Below are positions 650-10,169 of a DNA stretch of 10,169 bases, piece after piece; positions within the stretch are counted from its first letter, which is position 1, and each line of letters begins with the position of its first letter. A program made the position numbers and the translations under genes. The notes under the pieces are model-generated. The model was not told where the DNA came from and ran no database searches. It was given only the letters and a program-made list of their open reading frames with translations. The stretch is taken from positions 1-10,169 of the forward strand of contig JAESSU010000092.1 of NCBI GenBank assembly GCA_016763955.1, read 5' to 3'. This DNA comes from Phycisphaeraceae bacterium. GTDB lineage: Bacteria > Planctomycetota > Phycisphaerae > Phycisphaerales > Phycisphaeraceae.

Positions 650-3055
650 TCATGTGGGTTGAGTAGGAAGGTACGAACGAACGTCCAACTCATTAAGGCG
701 GCCGGGAGTTAGTTCGTATTGCTTGTCGCCCCAGACAAAAATACCTGGCGTGTCGTTGGGCAACTGTATTTTTGCTTGACAGCGTTTACCCTCTTGGGAA
801 AAACATAGACTCACAGAAATCTTGCCACGCGGATGCGGGATTTCACTATCAATCTTTTTCAACGATCCGGGCAAGGGTGCAATTTCGACCGAACCAAAGC
901 CATACGATGTCGGACGAATCCCCGCTAGCGATGCGTGGAAATGATACAGCGGATGAGAACCCCATGCATGGCAATCTGACCGTGCAGGCTCGGGGCGTTC
1001 CAAAGGTGTCTTGAGACCTTGGGAAGGGAGATGCTTCCAAAAATCTAATTTTTCACACAGGGCGTGACCGCAGTTGAATTTGTTAAAGACTTCAAGCAGA
1101 TAGAAGGAAAAATAGATCGTTGCTTTTGCCATGTCCTGGCTATCTAACAAACATTTTAGGCTTGACTGAGTTTGTTGTTCGTCAAGAACATCTGAAAGAA
1201 GAGATAAACACTGGGCATGTTCGCTGTAATGTTCATGGGACAAATCATCAGCAAGGCAACCTTCCTTGTCATCCCAAAATTGTTCAATCACACACTTGGC
1301 AAGACGCTGAGCCATGGCATTGTAACGCTGGGCTAACAGCGGTTCGCCAAATTGATTTTCCAATTTTGCAGCTTGCTTTAATGCGTAAATAAACAGCAAA
1401 TTGTTGACGGATGAAATGCCATCTTTGCCATCCGGAGCATTGCCGTAGTCCCACTGGGGCACCCAGTCCATAAAAGACCAACCGGGCAAAGCATTGAGAA
1501 GCTCTTTGCCTTCGATGTGCATAAAAAATTGCTCTAGCAAACTACGAAGACCGACAAGCTGTCTGCGTATCCATGAACTGTCGTCACGCCACCAGGCATA
1601 ATCGTGGAGCATTAAAACCCAGATCATGGAAAAGGTTGTACTTAGTTGAAAAGGCTCGCTTGGATAGCGTTCAGCAACATAGCCGGTTTTCCAACGTGAA
1701 AAATCAAACAGCTCAATGGCACGACGCGCAAGGTGATCATCATCGTTGATAACATACCAAATCAACATTTGCACGCGTGTATCACCGACATACATTAATT
1801 GTTCATAAAAAGGACAGTCCATGAAAGTTTCATGGCAACACATCTGCAAACCACGCACTGCAATGGGAACCACTGCATCGAGTTGCGGATCATCACTAAT
1901 CCACTGTGAATGATCTTCAAGTGGATAGCGTGTTTCAATCATATTAATGGATTCAATTTGAACAGCATTGTCTTGGGTGGTGATACTTAACTGCCAATAC
2001 CGTCCCGCTCGCCACCAATGACTTTGGTAGTTGCGATCTGGCTGACCATCATTGAGAAAACTGTCGCCACAGCCAAAATAATACTTCTCAACAACCTCAT
2101 CACGATTACCCTTATGACATGGCTCTTTGGAGCCTTGGGGGGCATCGAGATAAAGTGATTCCGCCCAATGCCAAGTCACCTTGCTGGTCTTGCCGCCGGA
2201 GAGTTTAAGTTGGCTGTAGCCGCAATAATAATTTTGTAAGTCGATGATCACAGAGACCTGCGTATGTGGCGGGATGATTACAGGTTGCTGAGTCTCTAAA
2301 AGTTTTTGCCAGTCTTCTAATTGTGACGGATGGCAATCCTGCTTGGTGATTTGTTGGGTGGCTGGCCCGTCCACGACGGCTCGCACTTTTCCTAGTGAGC
2401 AATGTTTTCGCAACATGTCCGGCAACCCACTGGGCTCTAACTTCCAACCTGACCGAACGGTGCCCCCTCTACACGCAATCATTGGGGCAATTAGAATCTC
2501 TGGGGTATGCCAGGGTTGCGTCTGAGAAAAATATTCCTTCGCGTCGGTGATCAAACCGGGGCCTGTCACTTGGTATTTAAAATTTTCAAAAGAGATTCCT
2601 TGGATTTGGCGTACTTGCCAAGTCGGGGCTCCCGTGTTTAATGTCTCTATATCTGCTGCAAAAATAAATCCACAGCGATAAGATCGTTGTGCAAACGGGG
2701 CGTCTTGGCCAAGCCACCAAACTTTCGCTAAAAACTCATGTTCACCTGCAGCAAGCGTCATGCGATAAGAAGCAAAGCTCCAGTGTTCTTCGTCACCTCG
2801 ATCGGGCCCCATGCTAACAAACTGACCCTCACAAAATAATTCATAGCGATGATCAGCACTGACATGAAATTCAATGGTTTGTTCTTGTTTTAAGACAAAT
2901 CGGTTGCGAAATTCTAAAAAGGCTGTCTGCCCAATGGGGCAATTGGGAAGTCCAACCCAAGCAGCAGATTCGATGGCATAACGAGGCACAATATTGGCAC
3001 TGGCCCTAGGATACACCACAGGAACGGACAGACGTTTCATGTTTTTCATAATCAC
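650..3055 (-). CDS. GH78-type alpha-L-rhamnosidase, no signal peptide
   Basis: This 801-residue protein should hydrolyse terminal alpha-L-rhamnose from glycans or oligosaccharides. An N-terminal jelly-roll module (about 40-140, with 'VSADHRYELFCEGQFVSMGP') resembles the accessory beta domain of bacterial rhamnosidases. A second beta-rich region covers about 200-375, and an (alpha/alpha)6 barrel about 385-710. The barrel carries DCPFYEQLMYVGD at 413-425, matching the GH78 D-C-P-x(2)-E-x(6)-D signature; E418 would be the general acid, with D413 and D425 binding rhamnose. E686 or E689, just before SDCHAWGSHP (693-702), is a candidate general base. A C-terminal beta domain follows. No signal peptide is visible, so it probably acts in the cytoplasm. 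The GTG at 3055 is followed by ATG at 3049 and 3040; none has a good SD, so the start is uncertain by up to five codons. The gene begins 49 bases after the frame-corrected end of the GH20 gene, fitting one operon. A related non-rhamnosidase specificity is possible. Confidence 0.85.
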   Translation of the reverse strand: MIMKNMKRLSVPVVYPRASANIVPRYAIESAAWVGLPNCPIGQTAFLEFRNRFVLKQEQTIEFHVSADHRYELFCEGQFVSMGPDRGDEEHWSFASYRMTLAAGEHEFLAKVWWLGQDAPFAQRSYRCGFIFAADIETLNTGAPTWQVRQIQGISFENFKYQVTGPGLITDAKEYFSQTQPWHTPEILIAPMIACRGGTVRSGWKLEPSGLPDMLRKHCSLGKVRAVVDGPATQQITKQDCHPSQLEDWQKLLETQQPVIIPPHTQVSVIIDLQNYYCGYSQLKLSGGKTSKVTWHWAESLYLDAPQGSKEPCHKGNRDEVVEKYYFGCGDSFLNDGQPDRNYQSHWWRAGRYWQLSITTQDNAVQIESINMIETRYPLEDHSQWISDDPQLDAVVPIAVRGLQMCCHETFMDCPFYEQLMYVGDTRVQMLIWYVINDDDHLARRAIELFDFSRWKTGYVAERYPSEPFQLSTTFSMIWVLMLHDYAWWRDDSSWIRRQLVGLRSLLEQFFMHIEGKELLNALPGWSFMDWVPQWDYGNAPDGKDGISSVNNLLFIYALKQAAKLENQFGEPLLAQRYNAMAQRLAKCVIEQFWDDKEGCLADDLSHEHYSEHAQCLSLLSDVLDEQQTQSSLKCLLDSQDMAKATIYFSFYLLEVFNKFNCGHALCEKLDFWKHLPSQGLKTPLERPEPARSDCHAWGSHPLYHFHASLAGIRPTSYGFGSVEIAPLPGSLKKIDSEIPHPRGKISVSLCFSQEGKRCQAKIQLPNDTPGIFVWGDKQYELTPGRLNELDVRSYLPTQPT

Positions 3056-3104: not shown

Positions 3105-3354
3105 TTACTTTAATCCATCAGGCCAAGACCCTCTATTGAGGTTTGTCATAATATGATTGCTAGTCCATTGAATCTTGTGGACTTTTATGTTTGTTTCTGT
3201 CTTCTTGTTTAGGAAAAATTGTAGCCGGATTTTTTTGACATTGTCCAATTGTAAATTGCCCTGTTCAGGGGTTAAGCTAGCCGGCGAGATCGCAATATTA
3301 TTTGTGCCTTTTTTTAGTGAAACGTAACGTACACGGTAGTTTTTCCAGTTGGTA
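3105..3354 (-). pseudogene. Displaced C-terminal piece of the GH20 protein (frameshift)
   Basis: Downstream of the 816-residue frame the next frame is open to a TAA at 3105-3107 and reads as the missing end of the same beta-sandwich: NWKNYRVRYVSLKKGTNNIA, then LDNVKKIRLQFFLNKKTETN and IKVHKIQW. The pattern 'W-x2-Y ... L-x2-G-x-N-x-I' followed by a strand ending in 'I-x-W' is typical of carbohydrate-binding modules. The length 5748-3105 is 3n+1, so one base too many (or two too few) explains it, giving about 880 residues. Both frames are open over 3298-3407, so the switch cannot be placed exactly. Joining at 3354 gives GDG-TNWKNYRV, the best protein match. A homopolymer of seven A (3309-3315 on this strand) is the likeliest place for a replication or sequencing slip. 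Genuine mutation, sequencing error and programmed frameshifting cannot be separated here. Confidence 0.7.
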
Positions 3355-5748
3355 GCCATCGCCAAGATAAAATCCCATACGCATGGGCGTGTTGGATTCA
3401 ACTTCAAAAGTTAAATTGTGCGAGAGCAGTGTATCTTCACTGAGGGCTATTTTTTTATCTAAGCTAATCCGATCCGATTTTGTGTCAGCGGGAGCAGTGA
3501 GTACCAAAATATGCTCGTCTTGCGCGTCACCAATTTTTTTAAATTGGATGCCAGTTTTTCCCGCATGCTGCGCGGGGATTGTTGGCTGCCAGTTTTTCTT
3601 GAAATCCTTGATGGAGGAGTAAGCGAAATCGTCTAGCACGATTGGCTGTGATGACGGGGATAGAGCAGTGACGGCAAGGCAAGCAATAGTCACACCCTCA
3701 TAGTTATTAGAAATCAGCTTAATGCTGGCGATCGTGTTCTGGGGAAATGGATTCGTCCAGAGATAGGAGCATAGTTGAAAACGAATATTGTTTTTGTGGG
3801 TATCGACATAAACATTACGTCCCGCGACTGGCGATAAACGTGAATTCCAGTCGGTGATGTTCCAACGGTATTTCAACGGCACGTTCACCGTTTTCCCATT
3901 CGTGTAAAAAATTTGATAGTGACCAACCAATGGCCTCTTTAACGAACCAAATAGATAGTTTAGATTCGATGTGTTAAACGGGACTCCGCTTGCGTGAACA
4001 AAGGCAAGGTGTTTTACTTTGAGATTGACGTTAATGTCTAGGGCTTGCAGGGGGAAGCCATCACCTTCAAGACCACTAACCGTTAGCAGGCTTTGATCTT
4101 GATTGAGGTTGAATTTAATATCGCTGCTGGTGATGGTCGCCGGTAGTGGCGATAGGCTTCGTTCTAAAACACGCCCCGGCCAGTTGCCTGAAAGGTTGCC
4201 TACGCGATTGTTGCCTAGAAGGGCAAGGGGTTGCTGATCAAAATTGGTGAAGTCCTGCGGTGTCCCAATGCAGCGTGAACTAAATTCTGTAACGGGGTCG
4301 TAAGTCAGATCATCAGTTGCTGACAATTTAGCGGGATTCCAACTATACGCAGCAGTGAGGGTGGTAAGGGCAGCTGCGTCAGGTGAAAATAGGTGCTTCG
4401 CCCAGTTCCCCGCGAAATACCAGTAAGTTGCCAACATCCCTAAGGATTTAGGGTTGGCAGAACATTCTTCAGCCATCAATTGAATATTTTTAAAACGATT
4501 GAAGGAAGCACCTAAAACATCAAAATTTTTGTCAGTGAAATACTTGAGATGACCCTGTATTCTTTGGCGGTCTGTGGAGTAATCCCATACGTTGATAATA
4601 ATATCTTTGGGTAAAGAATCTACAATTTTATGTCCCCGGGTCAGATCAGCTTGTACGTACTTGTTGGGGTATGGAAGTAGTTGGTCATGGTACATGATCA
4701 TTCTTACGCCATGCTGTTTTAGGAAGTCATATGCATGAATAATTGCGCCCTTGAAAACCTCGGATGGTTCTTGCTTCTTACATGTGTCGCAGTGATGAAA
4801 TGGGCCGTATGAAATTTCGTCCATCGACAGATGAATATATTTTGGATCAAAGATATCAATCGTTTCAGTTAAGACCGCGTCGATAAAATCGTTGGTTTTG
4901 GGGTTCGTTGGACACCAAGCTGTGTGCCATGTTTTATTTTTTGGATTTTCAAGTAGTTTGACATTGTCTGGGTTGTCAAGAATCCATGTGGTATGGCTTA
5001 GATACTGAAAATAAGGGACGATTTCCAGATGTAGACTGCGTGCGTATTGAGATAATTCTTTGAGCTGTGCTTTTGAAAAAGCCTTCTTTTGAGTCTTTGG
5101 AAACTTCACCGAATCGTACTTGACATTACTCGAAAACTCAAGAAATAACGTGTTGATTTTTAGCTCTGCCAGTGCGCTAAAAAGCGATTTGAGGTTGCCC
5201 ATTGTATCTGGATTTGTCGCGTCACTTGCTCGCAAGTTTAGAAAAACCCCACGTATTTTCATAGCTGGTGCATCGTTAATTTTACCTTCAGAGAGAACTA
5301 TTTTTCCCTCGACGGTTCTAAATAATTGAACCAGTGTATGAATGCCATGATTGATCCCCGCAGCAGTCCAGGCGGTAATGGTCACCTGGTTAGATTTTGC
5401 CGTAAGGGTGTATGCCTCGCCTTTAACAACATCACTTTGTTTGAGCAGAATTTTTAGCCCGTTTGATTGATCAACTTTAACACCTTTGCGGTTTAGTAAT
5501 TCGGCGAGATAGGCAGCCTCTGGGGCGAAATTTTCTGTGACAATATTGACCTGTTGGCCTGAAATCATTTTTCCGGTAAACACTGCATGCTTGGGAGCGG
5601 GGAGTATAAATGGTGTACTGATGGAACTTTGAGGATTGTTGCTGACGGCAATTTTTGGCTGATTAGAATTGCTTTGGTCGTTAGCAAAAAGCAAGCTACT
5701 AAGGCAGAAACAGATCGCCATGGTTTTTAAAATTACAGTGTGATTCAT
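3298..5748 (-). CDS. Exported GH20-type beta-N-acetylhexosaminidase, C-terminus frameshifted
   Basis: The frame encodes 816 residues. A signal peptide is visible (basic/polar start, hydrophobic core 9-21, likely cut after A22). Residues about 48-160 look like the GH20 non-catalytic domain ('EAYTL...TAAGINHGIHTLVQLF'). The TIM barrel starts at KIRGVFLNL (164-172) and includes IHLSMDEI (305-312), where D310-E311 is the expected catalytic pair for substrate-assisted removal of N-acetylhexosamine. The family usually has H-x-G-G-D-E here; the L-S-M variant followed by C320-x2-C323 marks a divergent subgroup. A beta-sandwich (about 510-697) and a carbohydrate-binding-like module starting at LDDFAYSS (705-712) follow. 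The reading frame ends in KRHK at 3298, but the expected rest of the last module continues in another frame to 3105 (see separate entry). ATG at 5748 is preceded by AAAGGA about 10 bases upstream. It sits between a prepilin-like gene and a rhamnosidase gene. Substrate is inferred from family only. Confidence 0.85.
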   Translation of the reverse strand: MNHTVILKTMAICFCLSSLLFANDQSNSNQPKIAVSNNPQSSISTPFILPAPKHAVFTGKMISGQQVNIVTENFAPEAAYLAELLNRKGVKVDQSNGLKILLKQSDVVKGEAYTLTAKSNQVTITAWTAAGINHGIHTLVQLFRTVEGKIVLSEGKINDAPAMKIRGVFLNLRASDATNPDTMGNLKSLFSALAELKINTLFLEFSSNVKYDSVKFPKTQKKAFSKAQLKELSQYARSLHLEIVPYFQYLSHTTWILDNPDNVKLLENPKNKTWHTAWCPTNPKTNDFIDAVLTETIDIFDPKYIHLSMDEISYGPFHHCDTCKKQEPSEVFKGAIIHAYDFLKQHGVRMIMYHDQLLPYPNKYVQADLTRGHKIVDSLPKDIIINVWDYSTDRQRIQGHLKYFTDKNFDVLGASFNRFKNIQLMAEECSANPKSLGMLATYWYFAGNWAKHLFSPDAAALTTLTAAYSWNPAKLSATDDLTYDPVTEFSSRCIGTPQDFTNFDQQPLALLGNNRVGNLSGNWPGRVLERSLSPLPATITSSDIKFNLNQDQSLLTVSGLEGDGFPLQALDINVNLKVKHLAFVHASGVPFNTSNLNYLFGSLKRPLVGHYQIFYTNGKTVNVPLKYRWNITDWNSRLSPVAGRNVYVDTHKNNIRFQLCSYLWTNPFPQNTIASIKLISNNYEGVTIACLAVTALSPSSQPIVLDDFAYSSIKDFKKNWQPTIPAQHAGKTGIQFKKIGDAQDEHILVLTAPADTKSDRISLDKKIALSEDTLLSHNLTFEVESNTPMRMGFYLGDGYQLEKLPCTLRFTKKRHK
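3309..3315 (-). other. A7 homopolymer in the frame-overlap region of the GH20 gene
   Basis: Seven consecutive A on the coding strand (T on the + strand) follow ACT and precede GGC. Losing one A joins the upstream frame (...TLRFTKK) to the downstream frame (GTNNIAIS). It is therefore a candidate indel or slippage site. Confidence 0.5.
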
Positions 5749-5981: not shown

Positions 5982-6695
5982 TCAATCTTTATCGGGGGTG
6001 AATTTTCTGTTGATCTTTGTCCTGTATGGGCCTCCCCAGCCCCACTTCGTGGTCCCATAGTTAAACACAGCATCTTCGGTGAAAACGACATTGTGTTTCA
6101 GTGATTCGGCATGCCCATCTATGCCCAAATAACCACCGCCGCCTAGATGCCTTGCAGCGATCGATATGCCACTTGTTTGTGCTGGAAAAATCCTGGCCTG
6201 GCTGTTGCCGACATCTGAATTGTCGCCGAGTATAAAAGTGGAGTTAACGGGCACCTGATCTAGTTTAGTGCCCCAGCCATAGCCTTTACGTGTCTCAGGA
6301 GCCCACGACACGGTCTCCCATCCGAAATAATCCCAGTTCCATCCGTAACCAAAACTAGCCCATGTTGCACCTTCGTTTTGTCTACTGGGACATTGCGAGA
6401 CGCCTGTCGTTCTGAAGGTAGCGATATCTGTCGCATTGAAATAGCGGGGGAGGTAATTGAGCCACCATCCCTTACCGTTCACAAAGGAGCCTAGGATCAA
6501 GGCGTTTGTGTTGTCTGAGGCATACATGTTAATGCCAAGCCCTAATTGTCTTTGATTACTTAGGCAGGAAATTCGTTGGCCGGAGGCTCTTGCACTTTTT
6601 AGTGCGGGAAGCAATATTGCAATCAAAAGACTGATAATTGAAATAACCACCAATAATTCAATGAGCGTAAAGCCGGTGTTTTTGATAGGTTTCAT
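5982..6695 (-). CDS. Prepilin-like protein with H-X9-DG motif (DUF1559/GspG-like)
   Basis: This 237-residue protein has a class III (type IV prepilin) leader: MKPIKNTG, cleavage expected between G8 and F9, then [20 protein letters not shown] with glutamate at the required fifth mature position (E13). The hydrophobic helix, about 9-30, would anchor it in the inner membrane or pack it into a pseudopilus. The C-terminal domain is rich in Trp and Gly. It ends with H183, nine residues, then D193-G194, the H-X9-DG signature of the prepilin-like families greatly expanded in Planctomycetota. C44 and C102 could form a disulfide. The start is firm: AAAGGAG five bases before ATG. It lies 64 bases after the regulator gene and 233 before the GH20 gene on the same strand. 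What these single, carbohydrate-locus-associated pseudopilins do is not established; surface display or glycan capture are guesses. Confidence 0.88.
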
Positions 6696-6700
6696 GGTTG

Positions 6701-6707
6701 CTCCTTT
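6701..6707 (-). promoter_or_regulatory. Strong ribosome binding site AAAGGAG of the prepilin-like gene
   Basis: AAAGGAG on the - strand lies five bases before the ATG at 6695. It is the best SD among the - strand genes and fixes that start; the rhamnosidase start has none, so prepilin-like protein may be translated more strongly. Confidence 0.75.
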
Positions 6708-6759
6708 GGCTGTGTCTTGAAACTCGTTTATTTGTGATGAAAATGAATCTATTTAGGTA

Positions 6760-7860
6760 TTACAACTGTGATTGACGAACCTTAATATTGACGATCTCAT
6801 TATTGGCGTTACCAGTGAGAACAATTCGCTGAAGCATGTCGTTTGCTTTTTCAATCAATTGTGGAAAATCAAGAATCCAGTGCAACACGCCTGATTTATT
6901 GTATTGACGTGCTTGGGGACTGGCATTCGGGGTGAAGATGTCTACCAACTGTATATCGTTAAGTTGATCGTGTAGGCCAGTTTCTACAATGACGTGCTTG
7001 AGAAATTGATCTTGGGGGGAAAAGATAGTGTCGTAGCCACCTTTGGTAATTAGTTTTTCGACATCTTCTTTAAAGTGATTTACCGCTGAAAAATCATTGT
7101 TGTTGATTTGTTCGATAAATTTAGATAGCTCCAATTGAATAATGGTTAGATCATCACTGCGCCCTATGATCTTTGCTTGATCACGAAGTCCTTGCATTAA
7201 ATTTTTGTATGGCGAGATTTTAAGATCGTCAATGATGCAAAGCATTCGCTTGCGGTTTTTAACTTCCAGCATTTCTCGGCAAATATCTTTGCCTGCTTCA
7301 TAAGTATCGAAAATCACAGCAGGCAATTTGGCGTTGTCGAGTAACCTGTCAACGAGAACGATGGGGACTTTTTGAGACAGCTTTTCAAAAAAGGGGCCGT
7401 TGGGGTTGTTTTCGACCGGCCACAATAAAATGCCTTGTACGCCATTGTTGATAGCGTGCTCTGCGATTTCCCTTTCGAGTGCAACATCTAATTGTGATGA
7501 ACGAAACACCATTAAATTACCCCGCGCACTGAAACCCTCCTCCGCATATTGGATGACCCGCTGTTCGAATGGGGTACTTGCTGGATAGGGCTGAATGAAA
7601 GCAAACAAAATAGCGGTCCGAGCTACGCGATTGTTTTCCTGAACCATGGTCCCTTTCCCGTGGTGAGATTGGACCAAACCATTTTCTTCAAGCTCACGCA
7701 TCGCGCGGTAGATCACATTCGTACTAACACCAAAATCATCCCGAAGCTTACGCACCGAGGGCAACATACTGCCCGATTGGTAAATCCCTTGCTGCATCTT
7801 TTGTTTTAAATGCTGAGCAACCTGACGAGATAATGGAATTTTATTTCCAACATTAACCAT
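6760..7860 (-). CDS. GntR-family regulator with LacI-type sugar-binding domain (AraR-like)
   Basis: This 366-residue transcription factor joins a GntR winged helix-turn-helix (about 8-75) to a periplasmic-binding-protein-like effector domain (about 82-366). In the first part one sees the GntR pattern: QVAQHLKQKMQQG helix, SGSMLPSVRKLRDDFGVS, then NVIYRAMRELEENGLV and the wing HGKGTMV. The effector part has the LacI-like run GVQGILLWPVE, then VPIVLVDRLLD and FDTYEAGKDICREML. AraR of Bacillus has the same layout, with release from DNA on sugar binding; the ligand here is unknown. The ATG at 7860 has AGGA about nine bases upstream. It is the first gene of a - strand run leading to a prepilin-like protein, a hexosaminidase and a rhamnosidase, so it most likely controls these in response to a breakdown sugar. 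Repeats over its own promoter suggest autoregulation. Confidence 0.9.
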   Translation of the reverse strand: MVNVGNKIPLSRQVAQHLKQKMQQGIYQSGSMLPSVRKLRDDFGVSTNVIYRAMRELEENGLVQSHHGKGTMVQENNRVARTAILFAFIQPYPASTPFEQRVIQYAEEGFSARGNLMVFRSSQLDVALEREIAEHAINNGVQGILLWPVENNPNGPFFEKLSQKVPIVLVDRLLDNAKLPAVIFDTYEAGKDICREMLEVKNRKRMLCIIDDLKISPYKNLMQGLRDQAKIIGRSDDLTIIQLELSKFIEQINNNDFSAVNHFKEDVEKLITKGGYDTIFSPQDQFLKHVIVETGLHDQLNDIQLVDIFTPNASPQARQYNKSGVLHWILDFPQLIEKANDMLQRIVLTGNANNEIVNIKVRQSQL

Positions 7861-7871
7861 ACGAGATATTC

Positions 7872-7888
7872 CTGTTGCGAATCAACAG
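7872..7888. repeat. Palindrome CTGTTG-N5-CAACAG next to the regulator start
   Basis: Six-base perfect arms at 7872-7877 and 7883-7888 flank a five-base spacer, 11 to 28 bases upstream of the regulator ATG. On the - strand transcript the second arm runs directly into the AGGA ribosome site, so the site could be an operator or an mRNA hairpin that limits translation. It overlaps the first 10-bp repeat at 7884. Confidence 0.45.
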
Positions 7889-7928
7889 TAGAAATAGAAC
7901 TGTAGAACACTATGGGATAACAGTAGAA
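7884..7928 (-). promoter_or_regulatory. Three direct repeats TTCTAC(T/A)GTT, likely operators
   Basis: On the - strand TTCTACTGTT occurs at 7893-7884 and 7928-7919, and TTCTACAGTT at 7907-7898. The two outer copies on the promoter side share a longer 13-base match beginning GTGTTCTAC. Starts are spaced 14 and 21 bases. The upstream copy covers the candidate -10 element and the others lie between the start site and the ATG, a typical layout for repression. The AraR-like regulator next door is the obvious candidate binder. Confidence 0.6.
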
Positions 7929-7948
7929 CACGCATCGTTCAAAGTCAA
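7920..7948 (-). promoter_or_regulatory. Candidate sigma-70-type promoter of the - strand operon
   Basis: TTGACT (7948-7943) matches the -35 box in five of six positions; 17 bases later comes TACTGT (7925-7920), a weak -10. Transcription would begin near 7912 and give a leader of about 50 bases before the regulator ATG. An alternative -10 is TGTTAT three bases further on. The weak -10 lies inside a 10-bp repeat. Confidence 0.45.
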
Positions 7949-8007
7949 GGTGTAAATTTTAAAATTATGACTTATGGTTATGCATCTAGCTGCGAAGGGT
8001 GTTATGA

Positions 8008-8022
8008 GTTATTGAAAATAAC
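8008..8022. repeat. 15-bp palindrome GTTATT-N3-AATAAC
   Basis: Perfect six-base arms separated by GAA lie in the middle of the divergent region. Its centre (8015) is 73 bases from the centre of the palindrome at 8081-8095 (8088), close to seven helical turns, which would put two bound dimers on the same face of the DNA. Confidence 0.45.
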
Positions 8023-8080
8023 ATGGTCACTGCTCCAAATTCTGAAAATGGGGACATGTTCAAAATACAGCTTATTTGTT

Positions 8081-8103
8081 AACAGGTTACCTGTTTGGGT
8101 AAC
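8081..8103. promoter_or_regulatory. Nested palindromes AACAGGT-T-ACCTGTT and GTTACC-N6-GGTAAC
   Basis: A perfect 15-bp palindrome (8081-8095) overlaps a second inverted repeat with arms at 8086-8091 and 8098-8103. CCTGTTT recurs at 8113-8119. The cluster sits about 30-50 bases upstream of GATAAT (8134-8139), in the position of an operator or activator site for the + strand regulator gene. It is the best candidate operator for the second regulator, but this is inferred from symmetry and position only. Confidence 0.5.
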
Positions 8104-8133
8104 GGCGGGCCCCCTGTTTTGTAAGGTTATTTA

Positions 8134-8139
8134 GATAAT
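8134..8139 (+). promoter_or_regulatory. Candidate -10 element GATAAT for the + strand regulator
   Basis: GATAAT matches TATAAT in five of six bases and lies about 110 bases before the preferred ATG at 8249. No good -35 box lies 16-18 bases upstream, so if it is used it may depend on an activator binding the palindromes at 8081-8103. Confidence 0.3.
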
Positions 8140-8184
8140 ATGTTTAAAGTACATATTTGATTTAAATAAAAAGGCGTGTTTAAC

Positions 8185-8208
8185 AAATTTGAAAATTTTT
8201 ACAAATTT
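8185..8208. repeat. Inverted repeat AAATTTG-N10-CAAATTT
   Basis: Seven-base perfect arms (8185-8191, 8202-8208) flank an AT-only spacer; ACAAATTT is also directly repeated with an 18-base period. It lies in the leader upstream of ATG 8249. Its symmetry argues that this stretch is a leader or operator, not an N-terminal coding extension from the TTG at 8189. Confidence 0.4.
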
Positions 8209-8248
8209 CTTTGACTTAAGTAGCCAACTATGCCTACAATTGGCCAGC

Positions 8249-9481
8249 ATGAAAATGGCAGACCTTATCAATTCTTTAGAGTACGAATTGGCTCAGCCGC
8301 CAGCCAAGGCTGGGCTCCGATTAGTCGGCGAGCATTTTTTGGCAGGTCTTTATGACATTAACCGCCGAAAAGCTAGGCGGGTGCTGGACGTGATGGTGGA
8401 GCGTGGTTATCTGGTGCGTCGTCATGGCAGTGGAACCTATCTCAGAAAAATTCCTGTGGTTGTTGACTTGCCAGAAAATTACATCGCGATAGAAGGTTCA
8501 ATTTTTTCTCAGAATGAGTCTCAGAATAAAGTTGTTCGTTTGCAGCCTGTGCCCGGTCAACAGCAATTGACCCTTGGACTTTGGAGTGACCTGGATTGCG
8601 GTAGGGTTATGCAGCAATCGTTGTTGGGGGGGATTAAGCATCGTGTTGCAGAGTTAGGTCATCTGTTAGAAACCCATTCGTCTGTCCACGAGATTGGCAT
8701 GCCGTTATCCAGTGATGAATTGGAAGTGCAACTGCGTGATAGCACTTGTGATGGTTATATGATTATCACACAATGGGCAGACCAGTTTCTTGAAGCAGTT
8801 AATCGTGTTTGGCCAAACCACAATCCGCCGATTGTTTATATTTGGCCAGGCAGTGTTCGTTCTTTATTTGAGCCGATGATTAAAACTGATACGCAGGATG
8901 CAGTGGAGCGTGGGGTCTTGCATTTAATTGAAGGTGGATTTACAAAAATTGGTCTCATTGATACAGCTGTTCAACTAAGTAATAAAAAGCATGACATAGG
9001 CTATCAAGTCACGATGGCTTGTGCGGGCTTACCTTGTTTTCCTTCTTTAAGGCTTCATGCAGATTACCTGACAAACCCTAATAATATCGATGCAATTAAC
9101 CAATGGCTTGATCAAAATCCGGCCATAGAGGCAGTGTGTGTGATGTCTGAAAACTTATTGGAGCTGTTAGCGAAACAGTTCCAGTTACGAGGCAAAAAAC
9201 TCGGTCACGACATCGGCGTGGTAAGCATCAGCAATCGCAACAGCAAGCTTCCTAAAGGAACCCAGTGGAGTTGCATGGAGTTTGAGCCGAGTGTCGTGGG
9301 TTCTATGGCTGTTAATAGTCTCGTGTCCACGATTGTAACTGCTGGGCATGCTTTACATTCATTCTCACATCAAGCTCACTGGCGACCGGGCCAAACACAT
9401 TTACGTCAACAAATAATTACGAATGAAACCCAATCCAAACCGCTCGCTAAGCGAGTTATACCCACAGGAGCTTTAGTATGA
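8249..9481 (+). CDS. Second GntR-type regulator with LacI-like sensor domain
   Basis: Counting from the ATG at 8249 the protein has 410 residues. The GntR-like winged helix covers about 1-66: a first helix MADLINSLEYELAQ, then GLRLVGEHFLAGLYDINRR, the recognition region ARRVLDVMVERGYLV and the wing RHGSGTYL. A linker follows, then a LacI-like effector domain from about 108 (LTLGLWSD) with IKTDTQDAVERG (211-222), HDIGVVSIS and EFEPSVVGSMAVNSL, and the ending WRPGQTHLR. It should be a sugar- or oligosaccharide-responsive DNA-binding protein; ligand unknown. The frame is open back to a TTG at 8189, but the 20 extra residues have no GntR counterpart and cover an inverted repeat, so ATG 8249 is preferred; neither start has a clear SD. 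The TGA overlaps the ATG of the next gene (ATGA), so both are probably translated in a coupled way. It is divergent from, and only distantly similar to, the regulator at 6760-7860. Confidence 0.85.
   Translation: MKMADLINSLEYELAQPPAKAGLRLVGEHFLAGLYDINRRKARRVLDVMVERGYLVRRHGSGTYLRKIPVVVDLPENYIAIEGSIFSQNESQNKVVRLQPVPGQQQLTLGLWSDLDCGRVMQQSLLGGIKHRVAELGHLLETHSSVHEIGMPLSSDELEVQLRDSTCDGYMIITQWADQFLEAVNRVWPNHNPPIVYIWPGSVRSLFEPMIKTDTQDAVERGVLHLIEGGFTKIGLIDTAVQLSNKKHDIGYQVTMACAGLPCFPSLRLHADYLTNPNNIDAINQWLDQNPAIEAVCVMSENLLELLAKQFQLRGKKLGHDIGVVSISNRNSKLPKGTQWSCMEFEPSVVGSMAVNSLVSTIVTAGHALHSFSHQAHWRPGQTHLRQQIITNETQSKPLAKRVIPTGALV
9466..9470 (+). promoter_or_regulatory. Ribosome binding site AGGAG of the second prepilin-like gene
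   Basis: AGGAG lies inside the end of the regulator gene, seven bases before the ATG at 9478. Together with the ATGA overlap it fixes the start of the downstream gene. Confidence 0.7.
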
Positions 9482-10169
9482 AAAACGACAAAGCATTTAC
9501 ATTGATCGAACTTTTGGTTGTGATTAGTATTATCAGTATATTAATTTCAATTCTTCTTCCAGCCTTGAGTAGTGCAAGAAAATCAGCTCAAGCAATTTTG
9601 TGCGGTAGTAATACACGTCAAATTTTGATTGCTTGTGTGCTTTATGGTGAAGACTACAATGAGTTTTACCCGACTCAAAGGCATACGCATCAGGGTGCAG
9701 CTGGGACGGGGCCCAATCCAACTATTGGCTATTTTAATGCTTGGTTGTCTTCTGTGATGCTTTATACTGGGGAAACAACACTGGGTAATGCTCGGGCTGC
9801 TTGGATCAGTACTGCCATACCAGAACAAGTTGCCAAGAGTGTTTACGATTGTCCTACCAACCCACGGCTTTATACGACCTCTGCCATGCCGACAAACTAT
9901 GTCTATAACGCAGAGTTGGGCTACGATTATGTTTCTCCCATCCCTGGTGTGGGGCCGCTTGGCAGAGCGACGCTTCTTCCTGATGCTGCTCGTATTGCAG
10001 TTATAGTGGATGCTGGAATCGGGTTCCCCTTGGCTGCTGGTACGTTGACAAATTGGTCTGTGGTGATGTCCAACAACTCGACCACACGAGGTTGGGCGGG
10101 TAAGTGGCATAACGGTGCTTACAATGTAGGCTTCCTTGATAGCCATGTTGAACGTGTGGAAATGCCCTC
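9478..10169 (+). CDS. Second prepilin-like protein, H-X9-D-S variant (3' end outside window)
   Basis: The frame is open from ATG 9478 to the window end, 230 codons so far. It starts MKNDKA and then [20 protein letters not shown], a type IV prepilin leader with glutamate at mature position five (E11). The residue before the cut is Ala (A6), where Gly is normal; prepilin peptidases are known to tolerate Ala, so processing is likely but may be less efficient. After the helix come SARKSAQAILCGSNTRQI and a globular domain; C42 and C125 might pair. Near the end H211 is followed by nine residues and D221-S222-H, a variant of the H-X9-DG signature. Thus nearly the whole protein appears to be present, probably with few residues missing. 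It overlaps the regulator gene by four bases (ATGA) with a good AGGAG, so it is the second gene of the + strand operon. It parallels the prepilin-like gene at 5982-6695. Function beyond pseudopilin-like assembly is unknown. Confidence 0.85.
   Translation, partial: MKNDKAFTLIELLVVISIISILISILLPALSSARKSAQAILCGSNTRQILIACVLYGEDYNEFYPTQRHTHQGAAGTGPNPTIGYFNAWLSSVMLYTGETTLGNARAAWISTAIPEQVAKSVYDCPTNPRLYTTSAMPTNYVYNAELGYDYVSPIPGVGPLGRATLLPDAARIAVIVDAGIGFPLAAGTLTNWSVVMSNNSTTRGWAGKWHNGAYNVGFLDSHVERVEMP

Follow-up and report, generated by a model that had tools for sequence, protein, structure and literature searches.

Regulator–prepilin gene pairs in a Phycisphaeraceae genome as candidate glycan-use cassettes

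Introduction

In Bacteroidota, polysaccharide utilization loci bring together, under shared regulation, a substrate sensor, a protein that handles glycans at the surface, and enzymes; chimeric sugar repressors of the GntR–LacI kind, such as AraR, join a GntR DNA-binding domain to a LacI-type sensor. Here we describe a locus from a Phycisphaeraceae bacterium (Planctomycetota; assembly GCA_016763955.1, contig JAESSU010000092.1) in which two divergent genes for sensor-type regulators are each followed by a gene for a prepilin-like protein. The stretch analysed – the window, of 10,169 nucleotides (nt) – is an entire contig, C518, of a draft genome of 3.58 Mb in 559 contigs that is 78.5% complete.

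What the very large prepilin families found in Planctomycetota and their relatives do is an open question. Tuwongella immobilis is reported to hold 100 copies of N_methyl / SBP_bac_10 (DUF1559) pilin-like proteins, of which 31 were detected, with enrichment in the detergent-soluble fraction (PMC8567305). For Verruconatronum alginivorum, 67 pseudopilin homologs are reported in one genome, by way of transfer and duplication; a PulG-like pseudopilin gene lies inside its alginate cluster and another pseudopilin is over-expressed on alginate (PMC13274419). In two Planctomycetes, dextran is described as located on pili-like fibres (PMC5394234); under the 'fishing rod' hypothesis, pilus-like fibres bind polysaccharide before periplasmic uptake (PMC5394234, PMC12078418). 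A pairing of regulator and prepilin was not reported in any title or abstract start among those listed in searches of open-access papers, a scope that leaves subscription papers and preprints outside. Cassettes of the kind described below make the question of prepilin function testable.

Results

Each half of the window carries a regulator gene with a prepilin gene directly behind it. On the minus strand regulator A (6760..7860) precedes prepilin A (5982..6695) with a spacing of exactly 64 nt; on the plus strand regulator B (8249..9481) overlaps prepilin B (9478..10167), which is truncated by the contig end, by exactly 4 nt. This divergent arrangement, the starting point of the original prediction, was confirmed both directly and by Pfam. 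The prediction had also proposed that the order be compared with a shuffled gene order, and that the pairs are associated with glycosidases.

A profile search of the genome returned 69 N_methyl, 33 GntR and 41 Peripla_BP_3 matches. Because gene calling missed several of these (five of the 69, two of the 33 and one of the 41, respectively), a count was made without gene calls. On the same strand, an N_methyl match lies within 400 nt downstream of 23 of the 41 Peripla_BP_3 matches, against 0.16 expected from density, and within 1400 nt downstream of 15 of the 33 GntR matches, against 0.45 expected, both distance limits having been set after the tables had been inspected. Together the two kinds of regulator match reach 28 of the 69 prepilins; the reverse order was found once. 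Among called genes – from 75 match-bearing contigs plus the window, with C385 lacking its last 157 bases – a prepilin comes next for 25 of the 47 regulators that have a same-strand downstream neighbour, and a regulator follows a prepilin once. In 20,000 shuffles of the prepilin labels within contigs the mean was 7.1 (standard deviation 2.3) and the maximum 17, a comparison that is conservative because the contigs had been chosen for their matches. Pilin abundance therefore does not explain the order in this genome. The median gap between regulator and prepilin is 45 nt, versus 93 nt for 264 other same-strand pairs, and three pairs overlap by 4 nt. The genes that come after prepilins (n = 42) include GH20 (3), GH71 (2), GH42 (2), GH39 (2), Melibiase (1), beta-helix (4) and CBM9 (2) types, and the expected proximity to glycosidases was borne out in that several regulator–prepilin pairs are followed by one.

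The arrangement has variants. Three similar prepilins stand in tandem behind one Peripla_BP_3 regulator at 6400–8800 of contig C179 (L037), and C105 and C125 have two prepilins each. Two GntR matches, L063 (C498) and L066 (C346), contain an internal stop and are possibly decaying regulator copies or assembly errors.

Of 397 genomes searched in the class, five hold relatives of regulator B, at 13 loci in all; four of these loci, counting the window, are in this genome. Nine of the 13 have a prepilin directly next, one (C212) has a divergent prepilin and three have none, two of these three falling outside the genus. Over ten pairs (the nine plus that of Phycisphaeraceae bacterium NAT22) regulator identity and pilin identity vary in concert (Mantel r 0.98, p 0.0002), although two subgroups drive this correlation and some members are near duplicates, which makes the p value generous; a relative in G050, a genome of the same genus, shares 94% identity with one in NAT22. 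Two loci of same-genus genomes are stand-alone cassettes of a B-type regulator, a prepilin and one enzyme – a 1469-residue GH42-type protein in L278, a 684-residue GH71-type protein in L280 – beyond which, judged by eye, lie a strand switch or other genes; L279 and L281 look similar in layout. The gene after the pilin is of GH42 type in C480 and NAT22 and of GH71 type in C289. Since C480 and NAT22 have a GH42-type gene at this place, we predict one behind prepilin B, past the contig end. A tblastn search of plasmids with regulator B gave no match.

The strict co-evolution seen between regulator and pilin within the regulator B family did not extend across the genome itself, where the corresponding correlations were r 0.12 (p 0.067, Mantel, 21 pairs) and r 0.05 (p 0.16, 17 triads). 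Over 17 cassettes of this genome, similarity of the regulator goes with similarity of the next gene (r 0.46, p 0.004), largely from the window and C105. Over 41 rows, a Mantel comparison of pilin and downstream gene gave r 0.44 (p 0.0005); it was discarded, since tandem pilins share one downstream gene.

Regulator A has paralogs in the same genome on C105 (68%), C20 (67%), C128 (64%) and C98 (72% identity over 240 residues). A search for its family gave 18 matches: eight are directly followed by a prepilin (the window, C105, C20, C125, C331, two in G022 and one in G048), a ninth is accompanied by a divergent prepilin, C98 lies at an edge and eight have no prepilin next. G022 belongs to another genus, and at one of its loci the regulator is 78% identical to that of C105 and the pilin 82% identical to the second pilin there (60% to the first); at its other locus the regulator is 73% identical to that of C125, and the pilin 73% to the second pilin of C125 and 49% to the first. 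Such comparisons indicate that some regulator–pilin pairs have been inherited together, and that elsewhere the original pilin has either given way to another or diverged too far to be recognised; the regulator A group thus appears as a conserved slot holding an exchangeable pilin. Relatives of regulator A in G040 (L088 and L094; 42% identical) are followed by genes of 275 and 268 residues that do not encode prepilins; at L094 there are two such genes in a row, with signal-peptide-like starts by eye.

In regulator A the GntR domain (PF00392) scores 68.1 bits (cut-off 27) and the Peripla_BP_4 sensor domain 50.4 bits (cut-off 35.1; sensor models PF13407/PF13377). In regulator B Peripla_BP_3, a LacI/periplasmic-binding-protein-type sensor, scores 30.6 bits (cut-off 26.5) and the GntR domain is weak, its 20 bits falling below the cut-off of 27. 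The LacI helix-turn-helix model was listed for neither regulator at E ≤ 0.01. By this measure neither belongs to the LacI family proper.

Both prepilins have an N-terminal N_methyl segment (PF07963; 29.1 bits in A and 35.6 bits in B, cut-off 21.2). An H-X9-DG string starts at residue 183, in the C-terminal part of prepilin A, and an H-X9-DS string, HNGAYNVGFLDS, at residue 211 of prepilin B; the bare H-X9-D[G/S] string occurs in 24 of the 64 called prepilins of this genome. TIGR04294, the H-X9-DG family model, matched neither protein at E ≤ 0.01, and at E ≤ 0.001 matches three places in the genome, none inside the window. For DUF1559 / SBP_bac_10 (PF07596) prepilin A reaches 16.7 bits, below the cut-off of 23.3, and prepilin B is not listed; many relatives of prepilin A do carry this domain. 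AlphaFold models have a predicted local distance difference test score of 81.7 for prepilin A and 80.9 for prepilin B. The closest named relatives of prepilin A come from Victivallales and Omnitrophota. In 63 aligned relatives four residues never vary – C44, C102, H183 and D193 – which hints at a disulfide and at a conserved H/D site.

Each regulator gene has a promoter-like element of its own. That of regulator B is predicted at 8211..8246 on the plus strand, with TTGACT at 8211, TACAAT ending at 8240 and an inverted repeat at 8221–8246; because it sits between two candidate start codons, the longer TTG start at 8189 and ATG 8249, the latter is most likely the true start. A scan found 18 promoter-like sites in the window where 18.0 are expected, so that support for this promoter comes from recurrence in relatives. 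A perfect repeat, TGACCCA-N12-TGGGTCA, occurs at the same place in four regulator B relatives (C480, L265, L266 and L207), where it overlaps the -10 box and extends to the start codon; repeats as good arose in 8–12 of 500 shuffles per sequence, with the repeat of C480 scored in a 60-nt stretch and those of the others in 45 nt. Of the four, L266 and L207 are close orthologs. The copy in the window, TAGCCAA-N12-TTGGCCA, has six of seven pairs, with both arms altered relative to these, and is not significant by itself (121 of 500 shuffles as good); in the upstream stretches of the second regulator B subgroup this repeat was not apparent by eye. With the repeat lying between TTGACT 8211 and ATG 8249, the mRNA would be nearly leaderless. 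Since the prepilin is directly next in nine of the 13 loci, regulator and pilin diverge in step and the repeat recurs, the regulator B gene is likely to head an autoregulated operon.

A possible promoter and operator of regulator A lies at 7883..7948 on the minus strand: TTGACT, followed by the repeats TGTTCTACTGTT, TGTTCTACAGTT and TTCTACTGTT. TTGACTT and then TACTGTT occur in four of five regulator A sequences, the window's included, and TACTGTT recurs at a similar place in three of the four other relatives with enough upstream sequence. The copies vary in orientation – direct in the window, with an inverted second copy in C20 and C128 – and C98 has no exact copy. The regulators would bind these putative operators. 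There are thus two promoter-like elements, about 260 base pairs apart, and not a single control element. A perfect 7-1-7 palindrome, AACAGGT-T-ACCTGTT, stands at 8081–8095 between the two regulators; as a shared operator it is a weak candidate.

How far does the pairing reach? Other genomes of the family were sampled through the first 80 Peripla_BP_3-scored regulator loci among the matches listed; six had no called regulator and three lay at a contig edge, leaving 71 with a downstream gene, 46 of them on the same strand. A prepilin is next in nine of these 46, and the reverse order was seen in one of 26; three same-genus genomes account for five of 18 and all others for four of 53. A divergent prepilin lies upstream of eight of the 71 regulators. 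Approached from the prepilin side – the first 20 by N_methyl E-value among the matches listed for three same-genus genomes, 18 of them called, with regulators recognised by profiles built from this genome's matches – for five of 18 the immediate upstream neighbour is a same-strand regulator, and for five a divergent one. Each of the three sister genomes holds at least 129 prepilin matches. Among named sequences (the best 80 of 426 pilin loci, by title mostly Verrucomicrobiota, Lentisphaerota and Planctomycetota; ten pilins uncalled), three of 44 same-strand upstream neighbours are GntR-type regulators, a count that leaves divergent neighbours aside and in which one of the 44 proteins is absent from the Pfam alignment. 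The three come from Phycisphaeraceae NAT22, a Lentisphaeria genome and an uncultured bacterium. The pairing is thus strong in this genome, present though less frequent in its genus, and rare in the named sample: the proposed adjacency recurs in sister species, and a general rule for the Planctomycetes–Verrucomicrobia–Chlamydiae group is not borne out by that sample. In Capsulimonas (L217), which belongs to a different phylum, prepilins lie, by eye, amid repeated genes of PadR-like type; this may be a further arrangement in which a pilin is linked to a regulator.

Downstream of prepilin A, after a gap of 233 nt, follows a gene for a GH20-type glycosidase (3298..5748, minus strand) with a signal-peptide-like N-terminus by eye; its product is 58% identical to that of the gene behind the two prepilins of C105. 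Beyond it lies a gene for a GH78-type alpha-L-rhamnosidase (650..3055, minus strand; both assigned by Pfam) with no obvious signal peptide by eye, 22% identical to a rhamnosidase at a G022 regulator A locus. Positions 1–384 encode the C-terminal end of a protein truncated by the contig start, for which no Pfam or NCBIfam match was found at E ≤ 0.01, and a search of Rfam gave no match. Elsewhere in the genome are two prepilin peptidase matches, 11 matches to T2SSE-type ATPases (ten over the cut-off) and two secretins; peptidase, assembly ATPase and secretin, as a user of type II secretion or type IV pili would have, are therefore all represented.

Discussion

A critical issue is what a regulator, a prepilin and an enzyme would do together. 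We lean towards reading each half of the divergent arrangement as a glycan-use cassette in its own right, in which a regulator that responds to sugar is joined by a dedicated prepilin and at least one glycosidase, probably within a single operon. The regulator, a DNA-binding domain fused to a periplasmic-binding-protein-type sensor whose ligand would be a sugar, most likely represses its own promoter; when the inducing sugar appears, regulator, pilin and enzyme would be made together. Prepilin peptidase would then cleave the prepilin, which could join a type IV pilus or type II secretion machine encoded elsewhere, and at the surface the pilin would probably handle the polymer that the enzyme is cutting. 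The parts of this scheme differ in strength. That pilin and enzyme are co-regulated is highly probable, and the promoter pattern favours one transcript; that the pilin handles glycan could go either way, a role as secretion helper being the main rival. The function first suggested, glycan sensing, capture or uptake, is an inference, and so is enzyme secretion.

A number of results weigh against the cassette interpretation. In this genome 22 of the 47 regulators have no pilin next on the same strand downstream, and many of the 42 genes behind prepilins are not recognised glycosidases. In the family sample 37 of 46 same-strand downstream genes are not pilins, and a prepilin stands behind 19 of 114 other genes in these loci; the neighbourhood is thus rich in prepilins, and the exact order does not clearly exceed local pilin density. 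Only eight of the 18 regulator A matches have a prepilin directly next; the paralog on C128 comes with a GH20-type gene but lacks a pilin. Between the window and C105 the regulators are 68% and the GH20 proteins 58% identical, yet the pilins past their first helix share 30–33%, the level of unrelated pilins; likewise the regulator of G048, from a sister species, is 54–58% identical to those of C125 and its G022 relative, with pilins at an unrelated 20–23%. Different pilins beside similar regulators and enzymes speak against a strict enzyme partner and against the simplest substrate matching. Finally, a fold search with the pilin C-terminal part found no carbohydrate-binding relative, only weak pilin matches, though a missing match proves nothing.

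The most serious competitor, which we nonetheless consider unlikely, makes the prepilin a dedicated secretion helper – a pseudopilin produced with a glycosidase for its type II export and having no contact with glycan. The smallest cassette, of regulator, pilin and one large enzyme, fits such a role, as does the way in which the pilin subgroup of the regulator B family tracks, among the scanned members, whether the enzyme is of GH42 or GH71 type; the authors of the V. alginivorum study likewise suggest type II secretion of alginases (PMC13274419). A helper matched to its enzyme is hard to square, however, with the unrelated pilins beside the conserved GH20 proteins of the window and C105, or with the lack of correlation between pilin and next-gene similarity over the 17 cassettes of this genome (r -0.001, p 0.35). 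The same pilin differences behind similar regulators would suit a generic or diversifying surface subunit, serving adhesion or phage escape at any inducible site, its C-terminal part exchanged and unmatched to the sugar; the pilins of C20 and C531 are of a common type (score ratio 0.56) while their regulators (0.07) and next genes (0.01) are unrelated. This we regard as improbable, given the matches across genera between G022 and C105 (78% regulator, 82% pilin) and G022 and C125 (73% for both), and the fact that regulator–pilin pairs stay together in the regulator B family.

That adjacency is a by-product of prepilin abundance is scarcely credible: prepilins are abundant, here with 69 matches and more so in the sister genomes, and the family sample, with nine of 46 against 19 of 114, is close to what local density gives, but within this genome 23 occurrences stand against an expected 0.16, 28 prepilins in the one order against a single reverse case, and an observed 25 against shuffles within match-rich contigs that never exceeded 17. 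Chance is thus rejected for this genome, and not for the order in the wider family. We also consider it very improbable that, as the original prediction had it, a common control region joins the two modules into one functional unit. Their start codons are only 388 nt apart with the perfect palindrome between them; such a palindrome nevertheless turns up in 221 of 5000 shuffled versions of the intergenic stretch and was not found upstream of ten regulator B relatives, each regulator has its own promoter-like element, and in the flanks examined relatives of either regulator occur without the other. The modules look like separate cassettes that stand back to back.

If the cassette interpretation is extended to the genus, its members would carry dozens of glycan cassettes, each with its own pilin, and a shared machine would be re-fitted for each sugar sensed; the exchangeable slot would then yield a surface fibre that is modular and programmed by sugar, taking the place of outer-membrane uptake of the SusCD type. 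We put this forward tentatively, as a possibility that we rate well below the cassette itself.

Set against the polysaccharide utilization loci of Bacteroidota, the surface component in the window is a prepilin; a SusC/SusD-type domain is absent from the seven window proteins by Pfam, the genome as a whole not having been searched for SusC/SusD. The regulators share with AraR-type chimeras the architecture of a GntR DNA-binding domain and a LacI-type sensor, with the qualification that the GntR domain of regulator B is weak.

The window pilins have in common with the DUF1559 pilin-like proteins of Planctomycetes the prepilin cleavage motif, and differ in scoring below the DUF1559 cut-off; the available part of that account mentions flanking genes with signal peptides, not sugar regulators (PMC8567305). 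The alginate cluster of V. alginivorum resembles the window in placing a pseudopilin within a polysaccharide gene set; it comes from another phylum, and no regulator–pilin gene pair is described in the accessible portion of the report (PMC13274419). Closest in proposed use are the dextran-binding fibres, described in other organisms (Planctopirus and Gemmata) and, as far as the excerpted texts go, with no genes assigned to them (PMC5394234, PMC12078418). Should the pilins of these cassettes indeed handle glycans, they would supply genes for the 'fishing rod' fibres proposed in planctomycetal polysaccharide uptake.

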